Shown here in pieces: positions 466 to 25,522 of a stretch of DNA of 55,445 nt. Location of the stretch: positions 1 to 55,445 of the IMG/VR virus record IMGVR_UViG_3300043654_000004. One strand, given 5' to 3'. The notes under the pieces are model-generated. The model saw only the letters and a list, made by a program, of their open reading frames with translations, did not search any database and was not told where the DNA came from. A program made the translations under genes and the position numbers. The DNA comes from a virus. Position 1 is the stretch's first letter. The number at the start of each line of letters is the position of its first letter.

Positions 466-493
466 GCCCCGATTCTGTTTCGAGGTTCGGGGC
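466..493 (-). terminator. Hairpin after tmRNA, possible terminator
   Basis: GCCCCGA and TCGGGGC form a 7-bp GC-rich stem with a 14-nt loop, followed in the leftward direction by AAATTTTAGG. It could end the tmRNA transcript, or be the last structural element of the tmRNA coding piece. The T tract is weak, so read-through into the secreted-protein gene is likely. Confidence 0.45.
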
Positions 494-788
494 CAACCCA
501 AGCTACTTTGGTTTAGGCCGCAGCAGCAGCAAATGCGCGTGGCTTTTCAGTCATGGCATTTTTGATTATGTGTCAGATTAACGAGAGCCACATCGACTCG
601 AAACGTCCACTGCCTCTTTAATGCCCCTGTCGAATCTACGCATCCCCGCTCAAGGCTCTTAACCTTCAGCGAGGATGGTGGAGATGTCCGGGGGTCGCAC
701 CCGGAGTCCAGAAACAAAAGAAACAGCTTCATACGTTTATAACTTGGGCGACTTTCGCCGCCTCCACCAGTAAACTTAAAAAGCTTAC
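466..788 (-). ncRNA. ssrA: tmRNA precursor in circularly permuted (two-piece) order
   Basis: Read leftward, the tRNA-like 3' part comes first: a T-arm (687-705, loop TGCGACC), acceptor strand CATCTCC (680-686), discriminator A and CCA ending at 676. A 28-nt spacer (648-675) follows. Then comes the tRNA-like 5' part beginning GGGGATG at 647, which pairs with CATCTCC (7 bp, one G-U), and the tmRNA signature AGATTCGACAGG. AAAGAGGCAG (610-619) pairs over 10 bp with CTGTTTCTTT (717-726), matching helix P2. A tag frame (557-513) follows, probably AMTEKPRAFAAAAA then TAA. This order (acceptor piece, spacer, coding piece) defines permuted tmRNAs, which are processed into two chains and rescue stalled ribosomes by trans-translation. 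The start is inferred from the promoter at 795-823. Resume codon and ends are inferred. Confidence 0.88.
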
Positions 789-794
789 TTTTTA

Positions 795-823
795 ATATTA
801 CCATTCAACATATTCATTGTCAA
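795..823 (-). promoter_or_regulatory. Sigma70-type promoter for the tmRNA
   Basis: On the minus strand TTGACA (823-818), a 17-bp spacer and TAATAT (800-795) give a near-consensus promoter. It lies in the last codons of the 798-998 gene and points at the tmRNA, so the RNA gene has its own transcription start, expected near 788. Confidence 0.8.
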
Positions 824-998
824 GCTTTATTTCTTCTTTTTCTAAAAATAAATGATAAAAAGTTGCGTTAAGGTGCCAACCAACAACACAACCTGTTAAT
901 ATCTTTCTCGTCTTTGATCGGCAATCAAAGGCTTCAATTAGTCCGACTAGCGCCAAAGCACCGTGAATCAAAGCCTTAAGATTCTTTTCCTTCATCAT
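798..998 (-). CDS. Small protein translationally coupled to DNA polymerase
   Basis: This 66-residue frame starts at an ATG whose ATGA overlaps the polymerase stop codon, a typical translational coupling, with AAGAAGG just upstream. It has two moderately hydrophobic stretches (about residues 7-21 and 33-49), the second with a Cys and a conserved-looking G-x-H-x-N. It ends in an acidic tail. It could be a small membrane-associated or compact soluble protein. No family is recognised. A promoter for the downstream tmRNA lies inside its 3' end. Confidence 0.6.
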   Translation of the reverse strand: MMKEKNLKALIHGALALVGLIEAFDCRSKTRKILTGCVVGWHLNATFYHLFLEKEEIKLDNEYVEW

Positions 999-2950
999 GC
1001 CTTCTTGTACCTTTGACCTGCGTAACCTTCCACAGCCAACGGAATATCCAACCCCCACTTTGGTCGATTTGTCATACATTCTTCAAATTGCTTATACGTC
1101 AAATTCGATAGAAGTTTTACAAGAGCTACAAGCTCATCATGGACGTGTAGCACAATTTCAAACCCCGCTTCAGTCACGTTCATCATCCCGTTAACAAGAA
1201 TATCTCTAGCAATCGCCTGAACTACATTTTCTACAATTGCCGAACCTCGGGCTTCAATTACCCCCCAACCGCCGCCTTTCCCGCCCGGACCATTATAATT
1301 TAACACTTTATTGTTATATAAGTCAAGTCCTATTGTTGGATTGTCGTAATGAAGCGCCCGACCCGAAGGAAGAATAATATGCAACATTTTCGGGTCCCGG
1401 CCATCAATCCGAAGCGGGCCAAGTTGAAACTGTTCTTTTAACATGACCGCCCGAACGACTGTTAACCCCATTGATTTCCAATAAGATACGACTTCAGGGT
1501 AAGCCTCTCGCCATGCCCAAACTAACTCTTGAGCTTCTTCTAGGGTGATCTTCTGTCCCATCTGGAGCGCGTAGGCGACTAGCCGAGCAGCGCCCATCCC
1601 AAAGCCACAACCTAGGACCGGAGACTTACAAAAGTTTCGTTGTTCTTTAGTGATTAAGTCGTAAGCAATTTTAAACTTTAGAACAGCAAAGGACTTGTAT
1701 GGATCAAGACCATTCTTGAAGACTTCAAGCATTCCGGGACATTGGGCAAGCCAAGCAAGAACCCGATTCTCGATAGATGAATAATCAGCGACGAATAATT
1801 GACTTCCTTCTGGAGCGCAAACACTTCCTCGGAGAGTTCCCCCCACAGCTTCAACTGGATGAATATTCTCTGGAAAATCCAACCCTTCTAAAATCGCCTT
1901 TATAATCGCGTCATTATTTTCAGCTACTCGTTTAGTTGGTTTTAACAGATTATGAAATTGAACTCCTCGGCTTGCCCATCTTCCGGTATGGGCAGAGTGG
2001 TAGGTGAAAGCTTCGCAAAGCCGATTCTCTCGGGTTCTTTGCTGGATGACAGGTAACTTCTTAAACGCAATCCCGCCTAAAAGTTGTTTTAGTTCAAGAA
2101 CATCTCGAACTTTGAACGAATCAAGAGACGTTAATTTATTGTTTTCCAAAGCCGCAGAAATGTGACTTTTATCCAGAGATTCTAATGCATAACCTTGTTC
2201 GGCAAGCCAATTGCCTAACTGTTGAACTGAATTTGGATTCTTAACTCCGGTCAATTTCTTCATCTCATCTAAAATTATTGCCCGACTTTCTTCTACTCGG
2301 GCCAAAGCTTTGCCGACGAAGTTCAAGTCAATAGGAACTCCGCGCTGATTAATCTTCTGATCCAGAATCCACGTCTTTCTTTCGATTTCAGGGAAGGGGT
2401 GTTTCTTTTCGAGTTCGTGTAAATTTGCCCGTTCTGCTATGACATCCTGTTTACAATAATCCATGAACTTAGCCCATTCTTCAGGATTAGTTTCAGCATT
2501 CTTGAAATGGCTAGGAACTTTCTTTGTTCCCTTGGCCGGGGTGCAAAACGTCTTAATCAATTTCTTGCCTTCGGGATTTTTAAGATAGGCGACATCTAAT
2601 CCTAGCGCTTCGCCTGCGTCGTCCAACTTGCCCGGATATCCGAGATATCGGGCGTAGGCCATAGGGTCAAACCATTCTTCGATCTTAAGCATTATACCAA
2701 GTACAAAGGAAATAATTGCAAACTCGAAAGAAGCGTTCCAAGCGATCTTAGTAACGCTCGGGTCTGTCAAGGCCGATTTTACCTTAGCGGGCATTTCTTC
2801 CGAACCGGGCAAATACATTGAAACCGGGTCATCATTGAAGGCATAAGCGAGCATAAGTACTTTAGTATCAGGATGATGGGCATAGACATCCGTACCTACT
2901 TTCTTCAAGTTCGCAATTGCCGAAGTTTCTAGGTCTAGGTGCAATCTCAT
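995..2950 (-). CDS. Family A DNA polymerase with 3'-5' exonuclease domain
   Basis: The 651-residue protein is the phage replicative polymerase. An N-terminal DnaQ-like proofreading domain opens with D-L-E-T-S (residues about 6-10). The palm/fingers carry motif A (ADYSSIENR, about 389-398), motif B (RNFCKSPVLGCGFGMG, about 436-452) and motif C (HVHDELV, about 601-608). There is no 5'-3' exonuclease domain. Length and order match phage family A enzymes. It lies downstream of the primase, separated by 126 bp holding seven 9-bp AT-rich repeats, and its stop overlaps the next small gene. Family assignment is firm. Whether it prefers a modified base cannot be told. Confidence 0.95.
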   Translation of the reverse strand: MRLHLDLETSAIANLKKVGTDVYAHHPDTKVLMLAYAFNDDPVSMYLPGSEEMPAKVKSALTDPSVTKIAWNASFEFAIISFVLGIMLKIEEWFDPMAYARYLGYPGKLDDAGEALGLDVAYLKNPEGKKLIKTFCTPAKGTKKVPSHFKNAETNPEEWAKFMDYCKQDVIAERANLHELEKKHPFPEIERKTWILDQKINQRGVPIDLNFVGKALARVEESRAIILDEMKKLTGVKNPNSVQQLGNWLAEQGYALESLDKSHISAALENNKLTSLDSFKVRDVLELKQLLGGIAFKKLPVIQQRTRENRLCEAFTYHSAHTGRWASRGVQFHNLLKPTKRVAENNDAIIKAILEGLDFPENIHPVEAVGGTLRGSVCAPEGSQLFVADYSSIENRVLAWLAQCPGMLEVFKNGLDPYKSFAVLKFKIAYDLITKEQRNFCKSPVLGCGFGMGAARLVAYALQMGQKITLEEAQELVWAWREAYPEVVSYWKSMGLTVVRAVMLKEQFQLGPLRIDGRDPKMLHIILPSGRALHYDNPTIGLDLYNNKVLNYNGPGGKGGGWGVIEARGSAIVENVVQAIARDILVNGMMNVTEAGFEIVLHVHDELVALVKLLSNLTYKQFEECMTNRPKWGLDIPLAVEGYAGQRYKKA

Positions 2951-6427: not shown

Positions 6428-7177
6428 ATGACTGTCGGCCTTTCTGTATATAATCCTAAATTGTTAATTGGCGTTATTGCATGTCACCATAGAGCGCCCC
6501 ATCTTAACGCAATTAGAAATACTTGGCTTCCTGATACAAAGAATCGTTGTGACTATAGATTTTTCTTTGGACGTGGGCAACACGCGAACACACAACCTGA
6601 TGAAGTAATTATGGATTGTGATGATGCCTATCGTGGGCTTGCTTGCAAGGTCAAGGCAGCTTGTGAATGGGCACTTGAACATGGATATGAAGAATTTTAT
6701 AAGGTAGACGACGATACATATGTACGACCTGAACGAGTTGTTCGGGCTGGATTTGAGAAATATGATTACGTAGGAATGAAAAATGGCCCTACGGACAAAT
6801 ACCACGAATGTATTTATGCTCGCGGAGGAGCGGGATATTATCTTAGCAAACGAGCATTAGAAGCGCTTGCTGCCGCGCCAATTCCTAATCCTGATATTCC
6901 GAAAGATTACGCTGAAGATTCTTGGGTCGGTCGGATAACAGCCGAAGCAGGAATTGAATGTACGAATGACGACCGAGTTCGTTGCGCTGATTTCAGTGGG
7001 CCGAATCGTAGTCCTCGGCCAACGGGAAGTACAACTTGGAAACGAGATGTTCCAACACTTCATAATAAAATAATTTCAACATGCGAATTTCTCGGTTCTG
7101 AAATGTTGCAAGTTCATGATGAGTGGATAAAGTCTCAAGAACGGCATACGGCGTTAATGAGTAAGATTAAAATTTAA
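6428..7177 (+). CDS. GT31-like (Fringe/galactosyltransferase-type) glycosyltransferase
   Basis: The 249-residue protein shows the landmarks of GT31 enzymes: an N-terminal strand then I-R-N-T-W (29-33), a D-D-D metal/nucleotide-sugar motif in V-D-D-D-T-Y (about 93-98), G-G-A-G-Y-Y-L-S before the acceptor site, and the E-D-S-W-V-G (about 161-167) matching the GT31 ED(V/W)xxG motif. There is no signal peptide or membrane anchor, so it should act in the cytoplasm. It opens the glycosylation cluster after GAGGAG. A paralogue at 9521 shares all motifs. Donor sugar and acceptor are unknown. GT31 is best known in eukaryotes. Confidence 0.85.
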   Translation: MTVGLSVYNPKLLIGVIACHHRAPHLNAIRNTWLPDTKNRCDYRFFFGRGQHANTQPDEVIMDCDDAYRGLACKVKAACEWALEHGYEEFYKVDDDTYVRPERVVRAGFEKYDYVGMKNGPTDKYHECIYARGGAGYYLSKRALEALAAAPIPNPDIPKDYAEDSWVGRITAEAGIECTNDDRVRCADFSGPNRSPRPTGSTTWKRDVPTLHNKIISTCEFLGSEMLQVHDEWIKSQERHTALMSKIKI

Positions 7178-7212
7178 GTTTTAGATCGTTTCGATTCGCT
7201 ATCGGAGCGCGG

Positions 7213-7245
7213 GGGAGGTGCCTCAAACGCCTTCCCATCTTTTTT
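7213..7245 (+). terminator. Possible rho-independent terminator after the first GT31-like gene
   Basis: GGGAGG (7213-7218) pairs with CCTTCCC (7230-7236) around an 11-nt loop and is followed by ATCTTTTTT. It would partly separate the early genes from the rest of the cluster. The stem is short, so read-through is likely. Confidence 0.5.
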
Positions 7246-7254
7246 GAGGAAAGA

Positions 7255-7363
7255 ATGATTAATTTTTATTGCTATATTTGGTTGCGCTACAGTTAGGTAA
7301 AAAACATTCTGAAGAAACGAAACAAAAGATGAGAGAAGCACACGATAAACGTCGGAGGAAAAA
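7255..7363 (+). pseudogene. Remnant of a GIY-YIG homing endonuclease
   Basis: An ATG after TTGAGGAAAG opens a frame reading MINFYCYIWLRY, which matches the start of phage GIY-YIG endonucleases (usually F-Y-x-Y-I-W-L-R). It stops after 13 codons. In another frame immediately after, the DNA reads LGKKHSEETKQKMREAH followed by basic residues, a textbook NUMOD3 DNA-binding segment found at the C-terminus of such enzymes. Everything between is missing. This is best read as an internally deleted, dead homing endonuclease whose tail now supplies the ribosome binding site of the 7364 gene. Confidence 0.7.
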
Positions 7364-7879
7364 ATGCTTAGAAACCCAAATGATGTGATTTTGTCAGATG
7401 TACATCACGACGTTGATATGCACGCCGATTGGCTTTCATCCGTAGCAAAAGGAATTATTTTTGAGATAGGTGTACGAACAGGAATATCTACTGCATCTTT
7501 TCTTCGAGGGCTAGAAAAGAACGGCGGGCATCTTTATAGTTGCGAAATTAACCCTACATGTTCTGATATTTTTGCTGGACACCCACAATGGACTTTTATT
7601 CTTGGTGATAGTAGAAAGCCAGAAACGATTGTTACTAAGATTCCGAATAAGTTAGACATTTTGATGATTGATGGCGATCATACTTATGAAGGCGTGAAAG
7701 ATGATCTTAACAATTACACCCCATTAGTTAAATCTGGTGGTCGGATTATTCTTCATGACGTTTGTTCTGGGTACGATCCGGGAGTTCGACAAGCATTCGA
7801 TGAATTCATTGAACAGACAGAATGGGACGCAAATATTTATGAATCATGGGTGGGGCTTGGGGAGCTTTTAGTTCCATGA
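7364..7879 (+). CDS. Class I SAM-dependent methyltransferase
   Basis: The 171-residue protein has a Rossmann SAM-binding motif I (F-E-I-G-V-R-T-G-I-S, about residues 31-40) and the later M-I-D-G-D-H-T-Y-E-G (about 101-110) characteristic of the Methyltransf_24 type, which often methylates sugars or accompanies glycosyltransferases. It starts at ATG after GGAGGA and its stop overlaps the start of the GT17-like gene (ATGA). Sugar O-methylation is likely from context. The substrate is unknown. Confidence 0.85.
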   Translation: MLRNPNDVILSDVHHDVDMHADWLSSVAKGIIFEIGVRTGISTASFLRGLEKNGGHLYSCEINPTCSDIFAGHPQWTFILGDSRKPETIVTKIPNKLDILMIDGDHTYEGVKDDLNNYTPLVKSGGRIILHDVCSGYDPGVRQAFDEFIEQTEWDANIYESWVGLGELLVP

Positions 7880-8715
7880 TTATCGACTGTTGTATGTTCT
7901 ATAATGAAGTGTCTATGCTCGATTTGAGACTTCATGAATTAAATTCTGTAGTAGATAAATTTGTCATTGTTGAAGCAGAAGAAACAATTGGTTCTGGTCA
8001 GAAGCGTAAAGCAGTTCTTCCCGATAATTGGGAAATCATTAAACCATTTGAAAATAAAGTTCATTATAAATTACTTCCGAAACTTGAACCGCCATTTACG
8101 GGATTACCGGGCGATCCTTGGGGCAGGGAACGATTTCAACGTAATCAACTTCTGACAGCGGCTTTAGAACTGAATCCGCAACAAGATGACACATTAATTA
8201 TTTCTGACGTAGATGAAATCCCCGATCCAAAAGTAATCATTGATAATATTTATCGGCTAGATAAAGGTATTTGTCGATTAGCGATGAAATTCTTTTACTA
8301 TAACGTCAACAATTTTTTAGGCACTTGGACACGCGGTTCAACGATGGGACAACTTTCACATTACGTGCAAGTTAGTCCTGAAGATTCACGATATAAAAAT
8401 CAAGATAACGAACACATTATTGAAAACGCCGGATGGCATTTTAGTTTCTTCGGCGGCGTAGACAATATCAAAGATAAAGTAACTCACTATTCTCATGCCT
8501 TAGATGGTATTTGTACAGATTTACGGGCAAGAGATGATAAAGAATTGATTAAAGATGTTCTTGCAGGTCAAGACTTATTTCGTAGAGAAGGCATGAATAA
8601 GTTTATCAAGACTTCGACTTTTGATCCGACTTTACCTAAATTTTACTTAAATAACCTTGGTCGTTATAAACAGTTTACAGAAGAATATTTTGTAGAGAAA
8701 CATAGACATTGCTAA
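7876..8715 (+). CDS. GT17-like glycosyltransferase
   Basis: The 279-residue protein opens with I-I-D-C-C-M-F-Y-N-E and L-D-L-R-L-x-E-L, and has V-I-V-E-A-E-E-T-I-G and I-S-D-V-D-E-I-P (about 108-115). These are the signature of GT17 (beta-1,4-N-acetylglucosaminyltransferase III-like) proteins. The ATG at 7876 was chosen because it overlaps the preceding stop (ATGA) and follows a GGGGAG site. An in-frame ATG at 7846 would add ten atypical residues. It should be cytoplasmic. GT17 members outside animals mostly lack known acceptors. Confidence 0.85.
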   Translation: MIIDCCMFYNEVSMLDLRLHELNSVVDKFVIVEAEETIGSGQKRKAVLPDNWEIIKPFENKVHYKLLPKLEPPFTGLPGDPWGRERFQRNQLLTAALELNPQQDDTLIISDVDEIPDPKVIIDNIYRLDKGICRLAMKFFYYNVNNFLGTWTRGSTMGQLSHYVQVSPEDSRYKNQDNEHIIENAGWHFSFFGGVDNIKDKVTHYSHALDGICTDLRARDDKELIKDVLAGQDLFRREGMNKFIKTSTFDPTLPKFYLNNLGRYKQFTEEYFVEKHRHC

Positions 8716-8727
8716 ATAGGAGGAGCG

Positions 8728-9534
8728 ATGGCCGTTTGCGCTGATTGTAAAGAAGAGACGAGATTAAGAAAAACAAAAGGCGTGGAATGGCATAAATGTT
8801 GTGGCTGCGGATACTTCGGAGATTTTGAACCGACAGAACGCGCAACAATTGTAATTCCGAGTCGCTATCCTGATATTTTCGGGCCTTGTAAAGACTCGTT
8901 AGATAAATTCGCGCCTCTTGAAAAGAAAATTCTTGTTAGAGATGGACATGATATTCCAGACGCAGCAGGAAATAATTGGGTAACAATTCAAGCGCCAGAA
9001 GGTTTTGTATATTCACGAAATATTAATCTTGGAATCGCACAAGCGAAAGGCGATGTTCTTCTTTGTAATGATGATGTAGTGTTTAAGCATAAACATACAC
9101 TTGAGATTCTTCAGAATATTGCGAGCAAACACCCTGAAGTCGGTATTCTTAGTCCATTGATTGAAGGTAAAGTAGGCGAGTACGTTCAAGGGCATTGCCA
9201 GAATAATCTCGAATATACAACTTGTCGTCTTTGTTTTGTTTGCGTTTTTATTCCTAAGCATATTATAGATGAACTCGGAGTACTTGAAGAGAGTATTGGA
9301 GCAGATGGTTCATACGGATGGGACGACGTAGATTTTTCCCGCCGTGTAACAGACGCGGGGTATAAGTTAGGTGTGACGGCTCGCGCAACTGTGCGTCATG
9401 GGCACATAGACGGTGATTGGAGTACGAGTTTCCGTCGAACTGGAAAAAGCATGGAAGCAATGGATAAGATTGCAGCCGCGCAATTTCGAGCAAAGCATGG
9501 ACATAATGATTTAGGTTGTTATGGACCAAAATAA
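8728..9534 (+). CDS. GT2-like glycosyltransferase with N-terminal zinc ribbon
   Basis: The 268-residue protein starts with Cys pairs (C4/C7 and C24/C25/C27) that look like a zinc ribbon. A GT-A fold of family 2 type follows: T-I-V-I-P-S-R, R-N-I-N-L-G, the nucleotide-sugar motif C-N-D-D-V (about 112-116) and a late G-W-D-D-V-D-F-S-R-R. The zinc ribbon is an unusual addition and might bind a partner or nucleic acid. It overlaps the following GT31-like gene by 14 bp. Confidence 0.85.
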   Translation: MAVCADCKEETRLRKTKGVEWHKCCGCGYFGDFEPTERATIVIPSRYPDIFGPCKDSLDKFAPLEKKILVRDGHDIPDAAGNNWVTIQAPEGFVYSRNINLGIAQAKGDVLLCNDDVVFKHKHTLEILQNIASKHPEVGILSPLIEGKVGEYVQGHCQNNLEYTTCRLCFVCVFIPKHIIDELGVLEESIGADGSYGWDDVDFSRRVTDAGYKLGVTARATVRHGHIDGDWSTSFRRTGKSMEAMDKIAAAQFRAKHGHNDLGCYGPK

Positions 9535-10231
9535 GTTACTGTTCGCAGTAATGACTTGTTGGCCAAAACCTTTAAGTCCAATTCAGATGCCAGAACGAGT
9601 TTGTGTAGATCATACAAAGAGACTTCCTTTTATTCGTGAAACATGGGCAAAAGGACTGACTGACTATAAATTCTTTTTTGGTAAAAGTCCGTGTCAAGTA
9701 GAAAGCGATGAAATTGTTCTCAATTGCGGCGATTCTTATTATGAAACCGCATTTAAAGTTCAAGCAATGTGTAAGTGGGCATTAGACAACAATTATAAGT
9801 CATTGTTTAAATGCGACGACGACACTTATTGCCGCCCAGAACGAGTATTTAATGCGGGTTTCTCCGATTATGACTTTGTAGGACGATTACTTCCACCAGA
9901 ACCGAACCATCCTGTTCCTTACCCAATGGGCGGGTGTGGATATTATCTTTCTGAACGAATGTTGACGTTGGCGGCCAATGATAAATTTCCAGTCAATAAC
10001 CCTGAAGGCGACCCACTTAATACTTACGAAGATGGTTGGATTGGTCGAGTAGCACTTGATGCAGGAATAGAATTGAAAGATGACTTTCGACTTCGTTGTC
10101 ATCGTTGTTCGTGGAATTTTACAAATGAATGGATTTTGAATTCGCCAAGACAAGATAATGACATAATTACTTGTTGTGAGTTTGCAGGCGAAGATATGTA
10201 TCTTGCGGAACAGAATTTTAGGAACTCGTAA
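9521..10231 (+). CDS. Second GT31-like glycosyltransferase
   Basis: This 236-residue paralogue of the 6428 product keeps I-R-E-T-W (about 37-41), K-C-D-D-D-T-Y-C-R-P-E-R-V (about 96-108), G-G-C-G-Y-Y-L-S and Y-E-D-G-W-I-G-R (about 168-175). The two differ enough to suggest different donors or acceptors rather than a recent duplication. It starts inside the preceding gene and its stop overlaps the next start (TAATG), so translation of the cluster is coupled. Confidence 0.85.
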   Translation: MDQNKLLFAVMTCWPKPLSPIQMPERVCVDHTKRLPFIRETWAKGLTDYKFFFGKSPCQVESDEIVLNCGDSYYETAFKVQAMCKWALDNNYKSLFKCDDDTYCRPERVFNAGFSDYDFVGRLLPPEPNHPVPYPMGGCGYYLSERMLTLAANDKFPVNNPEGDPLNTYEDGWIGRVALDAGIELKDDFRLRCHRCSWNFTNEWILNSPRQDNDIITCCEFAGEDMYLAEQNFRNS

Positions 10232-10962
10232 TGGCGCTCATAGCAAATGGCGGAACTATAGAAGAGTTTACGATTCATCCTGACGATGTTCCGGTTTACA
10301 TTTGTACATATAATAGATTTTCTTGCACAAAGAAGCTAATCGATTGGCTTTTAGACGCAGGAACAAAGCGAATAGTCATCGTTGATAATCAATCGACATA
10401 TCAGCCACTTCTTGAATATTTCAAAGTGCTTCCGACGAGCGTTGAATTACATTCTATGGAAATGAATGTAGGCCCTTGGAATAGTTGGGAATGGGCAAAT
10501 AAAGATTCAAAAACGCCGTTTATATTTACTGATTCAGACGTTGTTCCGGCAGATTGTTGTCCTAAAGATTTAATTGCTAAATGCTTAAAGACATTTAACG
10601 AAAATCCAAGTGGCGGAATTCCGCATTGTGGAAAAGTTGGTCCCGGACTTAGATTAGATAACGTACCCGAAGAAAATCTTTTAAAGCCAAATTATCATGG
10701 TGGAAATAACCTTAAAGATCATGAAGCGGGCTTTTGGCTATATCGGTTAAACGAATATTGTTTTAGTTCAATGATAGATACAACTTTTGCGCTATATGCC
10801 CCTAACTACGTATTTACACTTCATTGGGCGAATATTCGTTTAGATAAACCATATGTTGTAGAGCATAAGCCTTGGTATTCAAGATCGCCCTATTCCGAAG
10901 AAGAACTATATTATCGAAATCAAAAGCATTGTGCAGGTACGGCCCATTTTGAAAAATTATAG
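10231..10962 (+). CDS. GT2-like (GT-A fold) glycosyltransferase
   Basis: The 243-residue protein has I-C-T-Y-N-R (about 25-30), V-D-N-Q-S-T and the metal-binding T-D-S-D-V-V-P (about 100-106), as in GT-A family 2 enzymes. A long C-terminal half includes H-E-A-G-F-W-L-Y-R-L. There is no membrane segment, so a soluble cytosolic enzyme is expected. It overlaps its neighbours on both sides. Acceptor unknown. Confidence 0.8.
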   Translation: MALIANGGTIEEFTIHPDDVPVYICTYNRFSCTKKLIDWLLDAGTKRIVIVDNQSTYQPLLEYFKVLPTSVELHSMEMNVGPWNSWEWANKDSKTPFIFTDSDVVPADCCPKDLIAKCLKTFNENPSGGIPHCGKVGPGLRLDNVPEENLLKPNYHGGNNLKDHEAGFWLYRLNEYCFSSMIDTTFALYAPNYVFTLHWANIRLDKPYVVEHKPWYSRSPYSEEELYYRNQKHCAGTAHFEKL

Positions 10963-11620
10963 GAAGGTCATTAAGAACGATCAAGAGATACTCGTTAAAG
11001 ATCAACCATTTTGGAATTTATTTGACTCGGGTTGGGAAGCTGATTCATTTGATGTTCTAGATCACTTTCTTACGAAAGATGTTATCTACATAGATGTAGG
11101 AGCGTGGATTGGTCCGCTTGTGTTATACGCTTCTCGAAAGTGTAAACAGGCTTATGCAATTGAAGCTGATTCGGTTGCCTATGAAGAACTTTGCAAGAAT
11201 ATTGAAGCAAATATTTTTCAAATTTTAACTTTTAAGCAAGCGATTTACAACTATGACGGCGAAATACAATTGAGCGGCAATGCGGGCGACAGCATGACTC
11301 GCGTAGGTGCGTATAAGACTGATTTTCACGTTCCTTGTCAGACGCTTAATACTTTTGTCATTCAGAATGACATTCAAAATCCTATGTTTATAAAAATGGA
11401 TATTGAGAATGCCGAAGAGTTTGTACTTGAGCAAATAGACTTCTTTGAAAAGTATAAACCAATTCTTTTTATAAGTCTTCATCCACAATGGTTTAAAGAT
11501 CAGGTTAAAGGAATGGAGACAATTAGAAAAGTTGGCCGACTTTATAGGCATCGTTGGAATACAAGCTTGGCTGAAACGAATATTGAAGAAGGTGCAGGTC
11601 CTTGGATATTTTTTGATTAG
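10931..11620 (+). CDS. FkbM-family methyltransferase
   Basis: The 229-residue protein has the SAM motif Y-I-D-V-G-A-W-I-G (about 52-60), E-A-D after strand 2, and the FkbM-typical K-M-D-I-E-N-A-E (about 155-162). FkbM enzymes often O-methylate sugars or polyketide hydroxyls. It starts at GTG inside the previous gene (32-bp overlap) without a clear site. A later start is possible but would cut little. It fits a sugar-capping step. Confidence 0.85.
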   Translation: MQVRPILKNYRKVIKNDQEILVKDQPFWNLFDSGWEADSFDVLDHFLTKDVIYIDVGAWIGPLVLYASRKCKQAYAIEADSVAYEELCKNIEANIFQILTFKQAIYNYDGEIQLSGNAGDSMTRVGAYKTDFHVPCQTLNTFVIQNDIQNPMFIKMDIENAEEFVLEQIDFFEKYKPILFISLHPQWFKDQVKGMETIRKVGRLYRHRWNTSLAETNIEEGAGPWIFFD

Positions 11621-11628
11621 GAGGAGTT

Positions 11629-12513
11629 GTGAGAATCTTAGTGACGGGAGGCGCTGGATTCATCGGCAGTCATTTAGTCGAACGACTTTTATCTCAAAAG
11701 CACGAACCTGTCGTCGTTGATAATTTGAGTACTGGAAGTAAAGCAAATGTTCCTAAAGATGTAGAATTTCATCAAATAGATTGTAGAAATACAAAAGACC
11801 TAAGAAACGCAGCGTATGCTTGCGAATATGTTTATCATCTTGCTTCAACAGTCGGCGTAAAAAAAGTTCTTAGTAATCCTAAAGAATGTATTGAGAATAT
11901 TATTAAGTCAACTCAGTCTGTTCTGAGTCTCGGCATCCCCGGTATGGATTTTTCGACTTCTGAAGTTTATGGCAAGAACACTAATATACTCTCTGAGAAT
12001 TCTGATCTTATATACTCAAGCAAATCACGATGGTCTTATGCGACTGCAAAGTTAGTTGGCGAATGGTTAGTCGCTTCAGCAGGATGGAAAACGGTTCGGC
12101 TTTTTAATATTGTTGGCCCTCGGCAAATTCCCGGATATGTTTTCTCTAATTTTATAGATCAAGCAAAAACGGGCCGACATATTACAGTCTACGGAACTGG
12201 CGAACAGGTTAGAACGTTTATAGACGTTCGTGATACGGTTGAAATTCTTGATATTCTTCGAGACAAGAAATTTGATTTTGTTAATGTGGGTGCAGCGCAC
12301 ACTCTTTCGATGAAAGAATTGGCCAAGACAGTAAAACGAACGTTGAACTCTACATCTGAAATTGTTACGATTCCGTATGAGAATGTTTATCAAGACGGCT
12401 TTGAGGACTGTTTAAGTCGAATACCAGATTTGACTAAACTACATTCGATTATCGGAGAGTTTGATTATAGACCAATAACGAAGACGATTGTGGATACGGC
12501 CAATGCGCTATAG
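11629..12513 (+). CDS. NAD-dependent sugar epimerase/dehydratase (extended SDR)
   Basis: The 294-residue protein has the dinucleotide-binding V-T-G-G-A-G-F-I-G-S-H (residues 5-15), a D-N-L-S-T-G segment, the catalytic Ser/Thr in S-T-S-E-V-Y-G and the Y-A-T-A-K (about 137-141) Y-x-x-x-K motif. This is the nucleotide-sugar epimerase/4,6-dehydratase type and should make the activated sugar used by the neighbouring transferases. It starts at GTG after AGGAGGAG. Which sugar is formed cannot be told. Confidence 0.9.
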   Translation: MRILVTGGAGFIGSHLVERLLSQKHEPVVVDNLSTGSKANVPKDVEFHQIDCRNTKDLRNAAYACEYVYHLASTVGVKKVLSNPKECIENIIKSTQSVLSLGIPGMDFSTSEVYGKNTNILSENSDLIYSSKSRWSYATAKLVGEWLVASAGWKTVRLFNIVGPRQIPGYVFSNFIDQAKTGRHITVYGTGEQVRTFIDVRDTVEILDILRDKKFDFVNVGAAHTLSMKELAKTVKRTLNSTSEIVTIPYENVYQDGFEDCLSRIPDLTKLHSIIGEFDYRPITKTIVDTANAL

Positions 12514-13135
12514 TATATTGACGCCAACTCTTTGCCGACCGTCTTTATTGAAGACAGCAGAATCGATTCTTAATCAAACGAATGGTGATTTTGAATGGTG
12601 GATTGCTGTTGATGTTCCGTTGATTATTCATCCTGAGAAACGGAAGATAATCGATAGTCTCCCGAAAGACCCACGGATAAAGATTCATCGCTGTAATAAA
12701 AATCATCATGACTATGGCAATTCTTGTCGATATGCTTTACATGACAAAGCTGTTGGCGATTATATTTGCTACGTTGATGATGATGATATTTATGCCGATA
12801 ATCAAGTATTAGAAACGTTGAATCAGGTTACTATGCCTTGGGCGACGTTTCCGACGATGAGATGGGGAAGTTTTTATTCTGTAGACCCTCCGGGGTTTAA
12901 TAGAAGTGGTTCAGGGATGTTTATACATCGTAGAGAAATCGGGCGATATCCTTGTAAAGACCATTGTGAAGCTCACCAAGAGTTTATGAAGAAGGTTAAG
13001 AAAGAGTTTCCGCATCATGATTTACTTTATGCGGCTGACGGATTGCTTGCTCAATATTTATATGAGAATTATCCGTATCAACGGTTAGATTGTAGACCAT
13101 TGACGATATATCAAGTTTCAAATAAGGGAAAATAA
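12503..13135 (+). CDS. GT2-like glycosyltransferase, last of the cluster
   Basis: The 210-residue protein begins M-R-Y-S-I-L-T-P-T and carries the GT-A metal motif Y-V-D-D-D-D (about 89-94). The ATG at 12503 lies within the end of the epimerase gene (11-bp overlap). A TTG 15 bp upstream is a less likely start. It ends 2 bp before the first virion-type gene, so the glycosylation and morphogenesis genes are probably cotranscribed here. Confidence 0.8.
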   Translation: MRYSILTPTLCRPSLLKTAESILNQTNGDFEWWIAVDVPLIIHPEKRKIIDSLPKDPRIKIHRCNKNHHDYGNSCRYALHDKAVGDYICYVDDDDIYADNQVLETLNQVTMPWATFPTMRWGSFYSVDPPGFNRSGSGMFIHRREIGRYPCKDHCEAHQEFMKKVKKEFPHHDLLYAADGLLAQYLYENYPYQRLDCRPLTIYQVSNKGK

Positions 13136-16479: not shown

Positions 16480-16803
16480 ATGGCAAAACAAGAAACTTCA
16501 GCAGGCTGTTATCCCGGAGAAAGATTGATGGGACTTTCATTAAGACGGGCAGGCAATAGCGATATTGATACGCTAGGATGCCCCGCACCAGCAGGCGAAT
16601 CGCCAGTCAATCCACGTAAACCGGGCGGGTTTAACAGCGCTGGAACCAAACGGGCAGGAGATACAGCAGGAGCGAGTTATTCGCCATTTCCTCCTACCGC
16701 GCCAGCAGATTATAAGGGCGGTGTAGGAACGGGACAAGGTAAAGGAATGCACGGCGCAGCTAAGAATGCAGCCAAGCGCTCTTGTTCTGGAGACAATTGC
16801 TAA
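16480..16803 (+). CDS. Gly/Ala/Pro-rich small protein
   Basis: The 107-residue protein is low in hydrophobics and rich in Gly, Ala, Pro and Ser, so largely disordered. A few Cys occur near both ends (C9, C34, and CSGDNC at the terminus). Its TAA lies 10 bp before the terminase ATG. Possibly a minor structural or packaging accessory protein. No family recognised. Confidence 0.55.
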   Translation: MAKQETSAGCYPGERLMGLSLRRAGNSDIDTLGCPAPAGESPVNPRKPGGFNSAGTKRAGDTAGASYSPFPPTAPADYKGGVGTGQGKGMHGAAKNAAKRSCSGDNC

Positions 16804-16813
16804 TCGGAGAACT

Positions 16814-18808
16814 ATGACGTTGGAGGGGTTAGTCGTTTGGTTTAATAAACATAGAAAAGATAAGAATTACCAACTACGAGATTGTTCTGACGAAGAATTT
16901 GAAAAGTCAGCTAAGAAAAGTTGGGCAAAACTTCCTGTTGAACATCAGAAGAAAGTTCTGACTACTTGTAAGAATGCAAAGTTATGGTCAGGTAAAGAAG
17001 ATCATACATTAGATTTTATAGTCAATGCACGATTTTTGGCGCAGACAAATTTGTTTGCATTATGTCATCTTCTTGAAAAATATAAAGATGTCTCAGAAAA
17101 AGAGTATACTTGGACAGACGGAACTGTTCATAATACTCATGAGGAAATCTGTAATTTTTTCTTTGTGGCTAAAGACCCGACTAAGAAGACGTTCAAAGAC
17201 TTTGCAAAAGATTATATCGACAAAAAAGAACGACTGCTTCTTGTTCCAAGAGGCGGTTTTAAGTCGTCAATTGACATGGCTGATACAGTACAGTATATAA
17301 TCTGTTGGCCGGAAGTAACAATTCTTATTCTTACGGGCGTTCTTGATCTTGCTAAAGATTTCGTAAAAGAAATTAAAGGCCATTTTGAACTAGATGAAGA
17401 CGGAGAGAAGTCGTTTAGACCTAAGAAATCAGCAGATGGTTCTGACAATTTATTTCAAGTCCTTTTCCCCGAGCATTGTATTCCGAAGGAAGAAGGAAAG
17501 TCTACTGAATATCAGAGCCCCGCTTCTCCAGTCGTAGAAAAAGAATGTACTGTATTTGCCGCATCTATTGACCAGAACTTATCAGGCTGGCACGTTTGTG
17601 TGCTCAAGTTGGATGATGTAGTAACTAACGAAAATAGCAGGACTGTTGACCGAATCAGAAATATCAATAAACAGGTTAGTATCAATAATGCCATGCTTCA
17701 CCCGTATGGGTTCTTTGATAAAATTGGAACTTGGTATAATAGTGAAGACACATACGGACAAACAATTAAATACGCCGCTAAATGTGAAAAAGACGGCGAA
17801 GAGATAAAAACGAAGATTTATATTCGTCCTGCTTGGTGGGCTAACGAAGCCGCTCGTAAAGCGGGCAAAGTTGAAGACGAGATGGTTGAATCAGATTATG
17901 ATTTCTGGTTTAACGAAGAGGGCCAACTTACTTATAAATTTCTTCGCGGTAAGAAACTTGAAGATGCTGAAGGCTTTGCGATTAAGTATCTGAATGATCC
18001 TACTCAAGCGCATAGAATTAAGTTTCCGAGAGAACTGTTGATACGGCGTACAATAGCATCGAATATGCTTCCTCAGCAGGGAATGATTGTAACAACTGTT
18101 GATACGGCGTATTCAACGAAGAGTTGGGCAGATTATACGGTCATATTGACCGCGTTAATTTATGGCGGTCGATTTTATATTATTGATATGAAACGCGGTC
18201 GATATAATGAATATGAACTGCCTCAGTTAATTGCTCAAAACGCCCTTCAATGGAAGCCAAAAAGAATCTGTATTGAAGATTCAGTAGGTGTAAAGTGGCT
18301 TGGCCGAGAAATTTATCGTGAAATGGATAGGTTGAAACTCCGCGTTCCGATTGAATTCGTTCCATTAGGCCAAGGAAGCGCAGTTAACGCTAAGAAAAAT
18401 ATGAAGGCAAAACCAGTTCTTCGATTGCTTGGCGACGAACGACTTTTATTCGCCAACCAATGTGTCGGACTTGAAGAACTTTATCAGGAACTTGAGAAGT
18501 TTGATACTGCTGCGGCAACACATGATGACATAGTTTCTGCGTTATCAATCCTTGTAGATCAATTTGCAAGTTATGCAGAGATGGAAGGTCGAATGTCTTC
18601 CGTCGCGCCAGATTTTATTTCTGATCCGAAGATGAAACAGCAATACGATCATATTTATGGCGCGGGCGTATTTGAAAAAATGGTCAATAACAAAGCATTT
18701 GAAGCAAGTCTTGAACATCAAGATATGTCTTTGTTAGATGCTATGAATGCTGAAAAAGAAGTCAGTGGGTATGATAAAGACCCACTCGTAGATGCAGGAT
18801 TGTGGTAA
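16814..18808 (+). CDS. terL: Terminase large subunit
   Basis: The 664-residue packaging motor has an ATPase half with a deviant Walker A, L-L-V-P-R-G-G-F-K-S-S (about 142-152), and a hydrophobic strand before the Walker B region. The RNase H-like nuclease half has V-D-T-A-Y-S (about 429), I-E-D-S (about 487) and T-H-D-D-I-V-S-A (about 569-576) as the acidic metal ligands. The ATG at 16814 follows CGGAGA. An upstream in-frame ATG would run through the previous gene. Portal follows 54 bp later. No small subunit was recognised nearby. Confidence 0.93.
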   Translation: MTLEGLVVWFNKHRKDKNYQLRDCSDEEFEKSAKKSWAKLPVEHQKKVLTTCKNAKLWSGKEDHTLDFIVNARFLAQTNLFALCHLLEKYKDVSEKEYTWTDGTVHNTHEEICNFFFVAKDPTKKTFKDFAKDYIDKKERLLLVPRGGFKSSIDMADTVQYIICWPEVTILILTGVLDLAKDFVKEIKGHFELDEDGEKSFRPKKSADGSDNLFQVLFPEHCIPKEEGKSTEYQSPASPVVEKECTVFAASIDQNLSGWHVCVLKLDDVVTNENSRTVDRIRNINKQVSINNAMLHPYGFFDKIGTWYNSEDTYGQTIKYAAKCEKDGEEIKTKIYIRPAWWANEAARKAGKVEDEMVESDYDFWFNEEGQLTYKFLRGKKLEDAEGFAIKYLNDPTQAHRIKFPRELLIRRTIASNMLPQQGMIVTTVDTAYSTKSWADYTVILTALIYGGRFYIIDMKRGRYNEYELPQLIAQNALQWKPKRICIEDSVGVKWLGREIYREMDRLKLRVPIEFVPLGQGSAVNAKKNMKAKPVLRLLGDERLLFANQCVGLEELYQELEKFDTAAATHDDIVSALSILVDQFASYAEMEGRMSSVAPDFISDPKMKQQYDHIYGAGVFEKMVNNKAFEASLEHQDMSLLDAMNAEKEVSGYDKDPLVDAGLW

Positions 18809-18862: not shown

Positions 18863-21183
18863 ATGGAACAACAGGCTTATGAGCCTATGAATGCCGAAGA
18901 AGCTACAGGATTTATTAGTGACGGCAATCCAAATCGGCCTCTTGTAGCAGGCGATTTTAATCAAATTGGTGATGTAAAAACATTAAGTGGTGATCTTGCG
19001 CTTGTTGTAGGCAGTGCTCAAGCAGCACGCGGTTTCATGGAAAATAAACAATGGAACTTGCTTTTCCGCGATGCCGATCTTTTGTTTCAGTCGCCAAGAC
19101 CGATGAGCGTTTATGAGAATACCTCGATAGAGTGGGGCACCTTACTGCAAAGGTAAGAATGCGAATCTTCTTTAATCAAGCTGAACCCTGAAACGGGAAC
19201 AGACTGCAAGCAGCGAAAGCGGGCAGCAGTAGAGACTAAACAAGAAGACATCCTTATGGGATGATGCGATAGTCCGATCTTACAGAAAACAAACTGTAAG
19301 CTAACATAAATGATGTTCTCGAACCAAACGTCCAACGTTTTACCGTAGCGAAAATCGTTAATGCTGTCATCCCGCAACTTTACAAGGGTCTGTTTTACGA
19401 CGATCCGCCAATGTTAATGCGGCCAAGACCCGGCACTTCACAACAAATCGTTGACGCAAAACAGCAATTATTTTCTTATATTCTTGATGAATGTCAATTT
19501 AAACAACAAACAAAATGGGGTCTTGAAACGCTAGCTACTTTCGGGACAGGCATCTGGAAGTGGGGTATTGATTGGAAAGACGTAACGACGCATAAACGAA
19601 CTGCAAATGTCATTTCTATCAAAACTGGAACTGATATTGACGCAAAAGAAAACAAACTTCTTGGTACAGGCGCACCAATTATTACTACGACTACGAAATC
19701 GATGTTGCTTCCTTTTTTCGAGCAGCGGCCACTTGATAAAGTCCTTGTTGATCCGCATCTTGAAGTTTCTGATATTAGGCAAGCGGATTGGGTTGTAGAT
19801 GTTCATTACATGGATTTCTATCAACTTGATGAGATCAGACAAGCACTCGCGGATTCAACAGACACAAAAGCTAAGGCAGGTTGGAGCATTCCAGCCAATC
19901 TTAAATCTGTCTGGATTAAGACGACTCCGACAACTTCTAATCTTCAGACAGAACAGACAGTTTACGCTAAAGGCGCGGTTCATCATTCATTAGACATGAA
20001 TATTGAAGCAGGTCCCGATCCTTTACGTAAGAAACTTGAAGTTCTGGAATATTGGGATAAGAAGCGCAAGATTATCGTCATTGATAATTCGACTGTACTG
20101 TATACAGGAGATAATGAATTTGGCGCGGTCCCATTTCTTTCATCGAATTGGTGGAATCGGCCAAAATCATTCTTCGGTATGGGTTTAGGGTTGATTATCG
20201 GCCAAAATCAAAGAGTTGACCAAGGTACGATTAATGCAATTCTAAAGATTCTGTCTTTTGGCGTCAACCCGATTTATGTCCAACGACGTGAAGCTAATAC
20301 TGCGACACAAATGATTCGGACGAATATCGGTAAAGTCATGAAAGTAGATGGAGAGTCTGACAAGGCTTTCACTCTGCTCGAACAACCCCGCGTTCCTTCG
20401 GATATTTGGAGCGCGATTAAAGAATCCCAAGAAGCTTCTGAATCTGCTTCAGGCGCAGACCAGCAGCTTGTTCAAGGGAGTACAGCAGGGCCAAGAGCCG
20501 GGATGGGCCGAACTTCAGGCGGTGCAGCTATTCAAGCTTCAGCTTCTGCTACGCGATTAGATGGCCCGTTAGATAATTTTATTGAGCAAGTATTCAAACC
20601 ATTTCTCGGCATTCTTGATATGCTCGTTTTCAAGTATATGCACGATGAATGGATTGTACATATTCTTGGCAATGAAATGGGGACAAAGTTAACTCAAGAC
20701 TTTTCAATGCAAGCTTATTGGGATTCAAATGTTGAATTTGAAGTCCTTGCAGGCGCGAGTATGTCCGCTCGCAGAACAATGGCGCAATCGATGGTCATGC
20801 TTACCCAGATTCTACAGAATCCACAGATTCAACAGAGTTTGGCCGAAATTAATGAAGAGTATATTGACTTCAAACCAATTCTTGCTATGTGGATGGAAGC
20901 ATCTGAATGGAAGAACGGTAACGATATAATTAAGCCCATGACAGCAGCCATGAAGCAGAAGCAAGCGGCTAATTCTAAAACAGCCCAAATGCAGATGCAA
21001 ATGCAGGCGAAACAACAGGCAGATCAAACTAAATTTGCACAAAAGGAGCAACTTAATGCTCAAGACGCTCGTGATAGAATAGAAAGAGATTTAGTTGTTG
21101 CAGCAGCGAAGACGAGCTTTTCAGAAGGGACGGAGGGTGAGGCTTCTGCTGCTGGATTACAGGGAGAATTACCTAACGTTTAA
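18863..21183 (+). CDS. Portal protein, split by a group I intron
   Basis: Two exons are inferred: 18863-19124 and 19313-21183 (join keeps frame, 710 residues). Exon 1 ends ...VYENT and exon 2 continues Y-V-L-E-P-N-V-Q-R-F-T-V, then G-L-F-Y-D-D-P-P typical of podovirus-type portals. Later parts include a long alpha/beta body and a Gln/Ala/Met-rich C-terminal helix. Without splicing, exon 1 stops after 97 codons. The portal forms the dodecameric packaging and neck ring. It follows the terminase as in most tailed phages. The exact splice site rests on frame, a final G and protein continuity. Confidence 0.85.
19125..19312 (+). other. Group I intron in the portal gene (ORF-less, about 188 nt)
   Basis: The insert holds the conserved group I core: GAGACTAAA (19233-19241, 5' strand of P7) and GATAGTCCGATC (19267-19278, 3' strand of P7 with the guanosine site). 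Between them is a P8 hairpin, CATCC/GGATG. A P9 hairpin (CTTACAG/CTGTAAG) is followed by a terminal AACATAAATG ending in G. It lacks an endonuclease gene. The P1 pairing is weak as drawn, so the 5' boundary is less certain than the core. Confidence 0.85.
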
Positions 21184-23230: not shown

Positions 23231-25465
23231 ATGAGCTTTAGTCCAGCGGGCAATGCACTTAATAATTTGCCCCAATCAACCGTGAAGTTCTACGATAAAT
23301 AATCTTGTCGTAGTAAAACCCCCTCTAATTGACTTGAAAGCTGAAATGCCAACAAGGCGGAAATTACTTGACAAACAAGTAGTACCGTGAGAGACTAAAC
23401 GAGAGGGCACATTTATGAGAACAGTAGAAGAGATTAAAGAATATCAACGTAGATGGCGTGAAAATAACCGCGTTAAAATGCGGGAATATGCTAAAACGTA
23501 TCGTAAAAAGCACCGTGATGTTCCAGCACATCTTATGAGAAAATATGGAATTACTCCAGAAGATAAAATAAGGATGTGGAACGAACAGAATGGTCTTTGT
23601 GGCGTGTGCGGTGAAACAATGCTTTCGGTTTTTGACCGTAATTGTCAAGTTGAGCACGATCACAAAACAAAAAGGTGCGTAGTTTAGCTCATTGGTATTG
23701 TAATATTATCGTTGGCGTTATGGAAAAGCATCCAATAACTCTTGATAAAGTTGTGAAGTGTTTAAAATCTCATTGTGATGCGATAGTCCGAACTCATGGG
23801 AATTATAACCATGAGAGTACAGCAGAAATGCTTGTACCTTCTGAAATTTAGAAGTAACACTTATTGAAGAAATTCCGAGAGAATTTAAAGGCTCAAACGC
23901 CTTTCGTGGCGTGCGCTGAACGTCTCAATCTGCCCACTAATAGTGGTAATCAGTATGAAATGTTCATGTACGTTCCGCTAGCCGCTAGCACTAACCAAAC
24001 CACTGAGGGTACAGTTGGCAGTCCGCTATCCGTCTCCGTACTAACTACTACGGCTACGATAGGAGAATATGCGGACTACGCGAACTTTAGTTCGCTAAGT
24101 CTTGCGACTGCAATTGACAATACTGTAGAAAACGTAGCCAAGGAAATGTCGTATCGCCTTGGTGAGTCATTGTCCGCTCTTGTTCGTGCAACTTGCGACG
24201 GAGCGAACAGCATTGATTCTAGCGTGCTAACTCAGTTGGCCGCTACTAGCACTTCAAGCTTTACCGCACTTTCACTAAGCCAAATCCGAAACAGCGTTCA
24301 ATCGCTGGCGGGTCGGGCTGTGCGGCCCTTCGATGAAGCAAGTAAGAGCTTTGTCGGAGTCATCCATTTCGTGTTATAATGAGGGTGGATGTAAAATTTA
24401 ACTAAATCGGGGAACACCTTGTACGCTGTACAAGACAATCCCGAGGAAAGATTCCATATGATAACCACTGATAAAGTGGATTGGGCGTATCTGTCCGGGT
24501 TGTTTGATGGCGAAGGAACATTTAGTATTTACCACCATAAGGGGCAGAGTTCTAACGGCAATCCTTATGATTCAACTGCTATTCGTATTGAAATAACGAA
24601 TACGAAAATACAATTAATGGAATGGCTTGTTAAGCATTTCGGTGGTCAATACTATCATCATAGACGTGCAAGCGCGAAACATAACATTGCTTATGGTTGG
24701 CGACCGAAAGGTCGTAAAAATAGCGAGCAACTGTTGTTGAACATCTTACCGTATCTGGTAATTAAGAAAGAGCAAGCTAAGATCGCTCTTGAATATGTTC
24801 GACTTCCGCATAACACAGGATTTGATGATACTTTAGCAGCAAAGAGAAAAGAACTGCTGACTAAGATGCAACTTCTCAACAAACGTGGAACATCCGTAGA
24901 GACTAATACGTTAAACGGCGATAAGCCGATGATAGAGTCCGATCTCATAGGCGACTATGAGAGTGATGCTGTGGTGACACAGACATCCTAAACAATAATA
25001 CCTTTTGCTTTAGGGGATGTCCTTGCTGACAACAGCAATGACTCTCCTATCGATATCCTGAAACACACACCTGTGGGTCAGGCAAGAATGGACGAACTAG
25101 TTTCTGTTGATCTGACCGAAGTGATCGAACTTCCAAGTTCGGGCGTTCAGTTCTTTCAGACTAACCTAGTCACTCAGTCTAACAACTATAAATCAGTTGC
25201 TGGACTAGTTGGTCTTCGTACTTATATTTTCGGGCGAGATGGAGTTTTTGCCATCAATCTCGGAGCTAAGGGCGATACTGGCTACGGTGATGGTGAATGG
25301 CGCAATATTGAGTGCAACATTATGCAGAACGTTGCACCGACCGTTGCAGACCCCGAAGGTCTGATCCCCGGATGGACATCTTACAGAGTGCATTTTACTA
25401 CGTCACTCGGCCCTGATACTACCATCCGTCAACGTCAAATCGACGCTGCCTCAGCAATTAGTTAA
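23231..25465 (+). CDS. Major capsid protein, split by two group I introns
   Basis: Three exons are inferred: 23231-23296, 23867-24367 and 25001-25465, giving 343 residues in one frame. Junction 1 reads V-K-F-Y-D/K-K-F-R-E-N-L. Junction 2 reads F-V-G-V-I-H/P-F-A-L-G-D-V. Both fit HK97-type capsid proteins, where an I-H-P then D-V/L and a later I-D segment are common. Each 5' splice site has a 7-bp P1 helix ending in U-G. The protein builds the icosahedral shell. Unspliced, none of the three pieces would fold alone, so splicing is essential for virion production. Confidence 0.88.
23297..23866 (+). other. Group I intron 1 in the capsid gene (about 570 nt)
   Basis: P1 is clear: exon CTACGAT pairs with GTCGTAG in the intron, closing with U-G at the 5' splice site. 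TCTT just before it pairs with the 3' exon AAGA (P10). GAGACTAAACG (23391-23401) and GATAGTCCGAAC (23780-23791) form P7. The P9 region has three hairpins, and the intron ends in ATTG with the canonical terminal G. A frameshifted HNH gene occupies the loop between the P7 strands. Confidence 0.92.
23415..23851 (+). pseudogene. HNH homing endonuclease in capsid intron 1, frameshifted
   Basis: The frame from ATG 23415 encodes a basic helical N-terminus, then the first zinc pair C-G-V-C and the HNH start Q-V-E-H-D-H-K, but stops at codon 91. After a run of five A (23669-23673) a shifted frame continues with V-R-S-L-A-H-W-Y-C-N-I-I-V-G-V, the normal second half of an endonuclease VII-like HNH domain, and stays open to 23851. 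One lost A explains it. The gene is probably inactive unless ribosomes or polymerase slip at the A run. Confidence 0.75.
24368..25000 (+). other. Group I intron 2 in the capsid gene (about 633 nt), apparently ending in A
   Basis: Exon CATCCAT pairs with intron GTGGATG over 7 bp with U-G at the splice site (P1). GAGG next to it pairs with the 3' exon CCTT (P10). GAGACTAA (24898-24905) and ATAGAGTCCGATC (24931-24943) form P7, followed by P9 hairpin CTCATAG/CTATGAG. Frame, P10 and protein homology put the 3' exon at 25001, so the last intron base is A, not the usual G. The 3' core overlaps the end of the endonuclease gene. Confidence 0.85.
24458..24991 (+). CDS. LAGLIDADG homing endonuclease in capsid intron 2
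   Basis: The 177-residue protein starts at ATG after CCGAGGAAAG. A single LAGLIDADG motif, Y-L-S-G-L-F-D-G-E-G (residues 11-20), with the catalytic acidic residue intact, indicates a homodimeric enzyme of usual length. The reading frame extends through P7, P8 and P9 of the intron, so protein and ribozyme sequences constrain each other. It should cut intron-less capsid alleles to spread the intron. Some family members also assist splicing. Confidence 0.9.
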   Translation: MITTDKVDWAYLSGLFDGEGTFSIYHHKGQSSNGNPYDSTAIRIEITNTKIQLMEWLVKHFGGQYYHHRRASAKHNIAYGWRPKGRKNSEQLLLNILPYLVIKKEQAKIALEYVRLPHNTGFDDTLAAKRKELLTKMQLLNKRGTSVETNTLNGDKPMIESDLIGDYESDAVVTQTS

Positions 25466-25522
25466 CTTGATAAATAAGTTGCTTTATGCTATGAGGGTAG
25501 AGTAAGAAAAAAAAATCTGATA

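Follow-up and report, generated by a model that had tools for sequence, protein, structure and literature searches.

The window, by which we mean the whole 55,445-nt stretch of DNA that was analysed, an IMG/VR virus contig (IMGVR_UViG_3300043654_000004), very likely encodes a genuine, selected two-piece tmRNA that is stable in a podovirus family probably infecting Terriglobia and that most likely sustains ribosome rescue. Two-piece tmRNA is regarded as characteristic of three bacterial lineages; with this phage family it enters a phylum that itself has the one-piece form.

Gene structure

The only Rfam match in the window is to the model tmRNA_permuted (RF04321), which merges the alpha, beta and cyano permuted tmRNA models; it scores 74.3 bits against a cut-off of 47 (E 1.9e-12), and the one-piece model RF00023 has no match there. 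The 3′ half with the CCA end lies 5′ of the coding half, and the halves are joined by the acceptor stem and P2 (Table 1). A phage-encoded permuted tmRNA had been proposed here from the letters of the sequence; the covariance model bears this out, all minus-strand coordinates of that original prediction (CCA end, spacer, coding start, both P2 strands) hold, and the tag with its five terminal Ala codons reads as proposed. ARAGORN, by contrast, missed the window copy, probably through its unusual T arm (6-bp stem, loop TGCGACC), and it also missed the copy in the related phage Tunturi_3; it made a "tmRNA*" call in 6 of the 8 family copies, with tags identical to those we read.

Table 1. Features of the window bearing on the tmRNA gene and its phage context
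Feature	Position	Strand	Basis or remark
Permuted tmRNA gene, whole	738-466	minus	RF04321 match
Acceptor piece (3′ half)	676..738	minus	RF04321 alignment, cofold of the two pieces, covariation
P2 strands of acceptor piece	738-733 and 726-717	minus	RF04321 alignment, cofold, covariation
T arm	705-687	minus	6-bp stem TCCGGG/CCCGGA, loop UGCGACC
Acceptor 3′ strand	686-680	minus	discriminator A 679; CCA 678-676
Intervening segment, 28 nt	675-648	minus	sequence; removal on processing inferred
Coding piece (5′ half)	466..647	minus	sequence, RF04321, cofold
Acceptor 5′ strand GGGGATG	647-641	minus	G3-U70 kept
GATTCGAC signature	636-629	minus	in coding piece
P2 strand of coding piece	619-610	minus	outer P2 strand 606-601
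Tag reading frame	513..557	minus	resume codon GCC 557-555; stop TAA 515-513; encodes AMTEKPRAFAAAAA
Terminal hairpin at 3′ end of coding piece	466..493	minus	loop ACCUCGAAACAGAA
Leader element UGGUGGAGG-CGGC-GAAA-GUCGCCC	746..769	minus	motif recurs near phage tmRNA genes
Possible sigma-70 promoter TTGACA-17-TAATAT	795..823	minus	sequence match; TG before -10
Small conserved phage ORF	798..1079	minus	between polymerase gene and tmRNA; 60% identical in G001, G002
Family A DNA polymerase gene	995..2950	minus	upstream of tmRNA; 71-72% identical in G001, G002
Terminase large subunit	16766..18808	plus	49% identical to Tunturi_3

The window copy agrees with RF04321 in half order, acceptor and T arm, CCA, G3-U70, inter-piece P2 and the placing of the tag frame after the P2/P3 region; it departs from it in its 6-bp T stem and in its setting, a phage whose probable host phylum lacks permuted tmRNA. 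Across relatives the intervening segment measures 25-118 nt, and the terminal hairpin keeps its loop and varies in its stem.

The same kind of match can arise where the 3′ end of a tRNA stands before a one-piece tmRNA's 5′ end, and this model artefact is real and common, accounting for nearly all matches in Acidobacteriota genomes. For the window its probability is close to nil. There is no complete tRNA upstream and no second 3′ half downstream in the window, and the acceptor strands match and pair across the pieces, as do those of P2, with covariation; a tRNA next to a one-piece tmRNA is thereby excluded and the artefact refuted.

The gene had also been credited with a promoter of its own. 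The sequence is there, with an extended -10, and might serve for transcription of the gene, but promoter-like matches (8 observed against 5.7 in shuffled sequence, sd 2.2) do not exceed the shuffled number.

As an aside for future searches, the coding-piece loop ACCTNGNAACAGAACGG alone pulls out many viral permuted tmRNAs, which makes it a good signature to search with; among those found by the loop-pattern scan, many have odd T loops, for example GGCAGTA.

Selection on the fold

We aligned the acceptor and coding pieces of the 8 family copies, obtaining a consensus of 31 pairs in outer P2, P2, inner P2, the T stem and the acceptor stem. Over these pairs 92.7% of cells are paired, and double (compensatory) changes occur in 23 of the 31, including pairs that join the two pieces. 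The covariation score was reached by none of 500 shuffles, and sliding the pairing partners by one column left only 37-48% pairing. Taking the structure from the same sequences inflates the pairing percentage; it does not inflate the double changes in the acceptor and T stems, because the helices there are set by the known tmRNA fold. Pairs G1-C72, G2-C71 and G3-U70 are invariant in the 8 copies, and the alanine identity pair G3-U70 is also found in all other viral copies listed. The covariation test is stronger evidence than cofold energy: for the two pieces alone, pairing energy is only weakly better than for shuffled pieces, 2-8% of shuffles being as good.

In favour of a decaying relic without function, the T stem of the window copy has 6 bp and U55 is replaced by G. 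We nevertheless consider decay very unlikely, given that every helix is intact in this copy and that the tag frame is open and conserved between phages at 50-70% protein identity.

Phage family and probable host

The terminase, portal, DNA polymerase A and exonuclease of the window are all phage-like. Its sole clear isolate relative is Tunturiibacter phage Tunturi_3, to which the identity of TerL is 49% (next best about 25%), of the portal 56% and of the major capsid protein (MCP) 78-81%, and whose structural module (TerL, portal, MCP, tail genes) is in the same order; a 94-kb record, G002, is closer to the window than Tunturi_3. These comparisons mark the window as part of the genome of a Tunturi_3-like podovirus. 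The host of Tunturi_3 is Tunturiibacter (Acidobacteriota), and the family appears to consist of lytic-looking podoviruses that probably have Terriglobia (Acidobacteriota) as hosts; for the window phage the host is assigned solely by kinship.

Tunturi_3 has a permuted tmRNA at 88172-88396 (63.3 bits), which is unannotated; its authors list tRNAs but no tmRNA (Tunturi paper). Permuted tmRNAs are also present in G001 and G002. A portal-profile scan of IMG/VR yielded 276 relatives, and among the 40 records then searched for tmRNA it was found in all three longer than 90 kb (G572, G573 and G588) and in the 48-kb G583. Thus all five family records above 90 kb (G002, G572, G573, G588 and Tunturi_3) carry the gene, at a distance of 11 to 17 kb on the upstream side of the portal gene (measured across record ends in Tunturi_3 and G588). 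Given this same relative place and its presence in all records above 90 kb, the permuted tmRNA seems to be among the core genes of this family. Several family fragments have no tmRNA match, and at least one of them (G568) covers a similar length of sequence upstream of the portal gene. A distant blastn search of isolate phages with the tmRNA gave no match.

Bacterial ssrA is a common integration site and the gene lies near a contig end, so that a prophage border at ssrA, or a chimeric contig, could have put host DNA in the window. We hold this to be extremely improbable. The gene sits between phage genes and occupies the same relative place, internally, in G002 and in the isolate Tunturi_3, which refutes the prophage reading; moreover, the host group has one-piece tmRNA.

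Some other features of these genomes were noted. Relative to Tunturi_3, the major capsid gene of the window (23231-25470) is split twice, by an insert of about 570 bp after residue 23 and by one of about 630 bp near residue 189 that holds a LAGLIDADG ORF (24419-24991); the G002 capsid gene is also interrupted at the second site, and the capsid inserts are probably introns. In the portal gene, about 185 bp (19129-19315) are inserted after residue 88 of the G002 protein, possibly a small intron or an assembly fault. Glycosyltransferase, epimerase and related genes, partly common to G002, are clustered on the plus strand at 6428-13135.

tmRNA form in the hosts

At E below 1e-20, 177 of the 200 Terriglobia genomes searched gave a one-piece tmRNA match, and the Edaphobacter (Tunturiibacter) lichenicola genome has one strong one-piece copy. 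RF04321 matched in 13 of 396 Acidobacteriota genomes, all inspected by eye or with ARAGORN. When applied to genomes, this model gives artefact matches where a tRNA or tmRNA fragment precedes a one-piece tmRNA, and all 13 were rejected, being either tRNA-Asp plus a one-piece tmRNA or a broken tmRNA copy preceding an intact one; no true permuted gene was thus found in the 396 genomes. Among 31 genomes of the host genus the sole match over the cut-off is such an artefact, in G157, where the 3′ part of a tmRNA, broken off at the T loop, is followed by an intact one-piece tmRNA (locus L194); this looks like an integrated element at ssrA.

The two-piece form of the phage tmRNA is therefore mismatched, as far as host kinship can be trusted, to the one-piece form of the probable hosts. 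Tunturi_3 and Tunturiibacter are a culturable pair whose tmRNAs differ in form, length and tag, and the reason why phages carry tmRNA is directly testable in it, since both RNAs and both tags can be distinguished in one infected cell.

Tags

The window tag, (A)AMTEKPRAFAAAAA, ends in five Ala. It is homologous to the tags of G573 (ATTEKPKAFAAAA) and G001 (ATTEKPKTFAMAAGL), both called independently by ARAGORN, and shares with them the pattern A-T/M-TEKP-x-x-FA. The other family tags are ATPKAKAFAAAA (G583), ATTKPRAMAAAAGR (G572) and ANTNVKAMSASAGA (G002), and long tags in G588 and Tunturi_3; the frame is open in all family copies. Host tags (Acidobacteriota one-piece), AEPQFALAA for instance, are short, with LALAA or FALAA at the C-terminus. 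Of the other viral permuted tags the majority terminate in LAA or IAA, counts outside the family being approximate, as the tag caller does not work on some copies from aquatic phages. Within the family, terminal Ala-Ala is present in the window, G573, G583, Tunturi_3 and L328 tags and absent from 4 of 9 (G572 ..AGR, G001 ..AGL, G002 ..AGA, G588 ..VLA). Because terminal Ala-Ala is the main ClpXP determinant, alanine tails likewise being ClpXP degrons (PMC7652416), the tag of the window probably remains a degron, and the four tags without it may not be degrons.

Proposed role

Two-piece tmRNA of the Caulobacter type is an established model for processing, charging and SmpB delivery. By analogy, host tRNA-processing enzymes would cut the precursor at both sides of the spacer, and the acceptor piece with its CCA end and the coding piece would remain joined by the acceptor stem and P2. 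The CCA end would then receive alanine from host AlaRS by way of G3-U70. The phages encode no SmpB, so it must be that of the host which would carry the phage tmRNA to stalled ribosomes, where the tag would be added to rescued proteins. Most likely, ribosome rescue would in this way be kept going or raised during infection, alongside the host one-piece tmRNA or replacing it; altering the fate of tagged proteins is an alternative purpose.

Interference, in which the phage tmRNA competes for SmpB and EF-Tu or adds poor-degron tags that spare phage proteins, is in our judgement unlikely. It would suit the four family tags that lack Ala-Ala, set against the LAA or IAA of most viral tags and the LALAA or FALAA of hosts, and a TLD-only molecule of the phage DS6A kind acts as a tmRNA inhibitor (PMC4131195). 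The five tags that keep the main degron determinant, the alanine tail and the tag frame open in every copy speak against it.

Tunturi_3 also encodes, at 82469-82807 (L062 32469-32807), an RF-1 (GGQ) domain protein, perhaps an ArfB-like rescue factor.

Relation to known tmRNAs

Permuted phage tmRNA is as a kind already known, mainly from aquatic phages, contrary to the implication of the original prediction that only one-piece phage tmRNAs were known: phage Melnitz carries a two-piece tmRNA, and 53 of 133 unique phage tmRNA structures are two-piece, 50 of the 53 being aquatic (PMC9004378). Our pattern scans found many more permuted tmRNAs in viral contigs. What is new is the Acidobacteriota phage family, the mismatch to the host tmRNA form, the family-wide conservation, the odd tags and lineage models that score under their cut-offs; our literature search found no paper on two-piece tmRNA in Acidobacteria.

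Like the Melnitz and aquatic phage genes (PMC9004378), that of the window is a phage-encoded permuted gene without integrase context. Unlike them, it belongs to a family of soil Acidobacteriota podoviruses in which all long records carry the gene, its tag C-termini are not LAA-like, and no glutamine riboswitch was found in the window (Rfam). With the one-piece tmRNAs of the mycobacteriophage Bxz1 group and Bacillus phage G (PMC4131195) it shares a phage-borne ssrA, theirs having standard gene order and one chain. In some large phages (L450, L515, L545) the one-piece tmRNAs have an encoded 3′ end CCACGA or CCACTA, not CCACCA.

The gene and its tag had been thought to point to a lineage of origin. 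The best lineage model over the full length is beta_tmRNA (RF01850), which the window copy resembles in the terminal hairpin loop CCUnG..AC..AA, but the score is 47.3 bits against a cut-off of 84; alpha_tmRNA (RF01849) gives 39.1 against 50, and cyano_tmRNA (RF01851) has no match at the gathering threshold in the window. With all three models below cut-off, a pointer to one lineage of origin is not supported.

Leader hairpin element

Upstream of the acceptor piece lies a hairpin element that reads, as DNA, TGGTGGAGG-CGGC-GAAA-GTCGCCC (769-746). Like elements occur in G588, G001, G002 and Tunturi_3, where they precede the tmRNA by about 290 to 565 nt. In a blind pattern scan of viral contigs, 16 of 53 elements with a good hairpin had a tmRNA no more than 1.5 kb away, compared with 1 of 66 that lacked a good hairpin (Fisher p 6e-6, some elements being copies of one another). 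No Rfam family fits the element, except for a borderline wcaG RNA match overlapping the one in L454; a covariance model of it (R1; 4 pairs, poor automatic alignment) was not used.

The element, UGGUGGAGG(CGGCG), is complementary to the Terriglobia one-piece tmRNA 3′ end CCGCCUCCACCA, and for the window a duplex of 14 bp is predicted. The complement of TGGTGGAGG is CCTCCACCA, and the 15 Terriglobia tmRNA 3′ ends that were read all finish with CCGCCTCCACCA. The acceptor is changed in the 5 family phages with the element, and the host-like CGCCUCC is kept in the 3 without it, a correlation in a small, non-independent sample; the duplex predictions ignore structure. It is conceivable, though unlikely, that the phage replaces the host tmRNA, the leader element blocking it and the phage acceptor (CAUCUCC) pairing less; the phage's own permuted tmRNA would then take over from a blocked host tmRNA.

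The scan elements also adjoin or sit inside one-piece tmRNAs of large phages. The UGGUGGAGG..GAAA..CGCCC hairpin was seen beside or inside phage tmRNA genes in L056, L057, L063, L305, L492, L455, L450, L485, L545, L529, L515 and L533.
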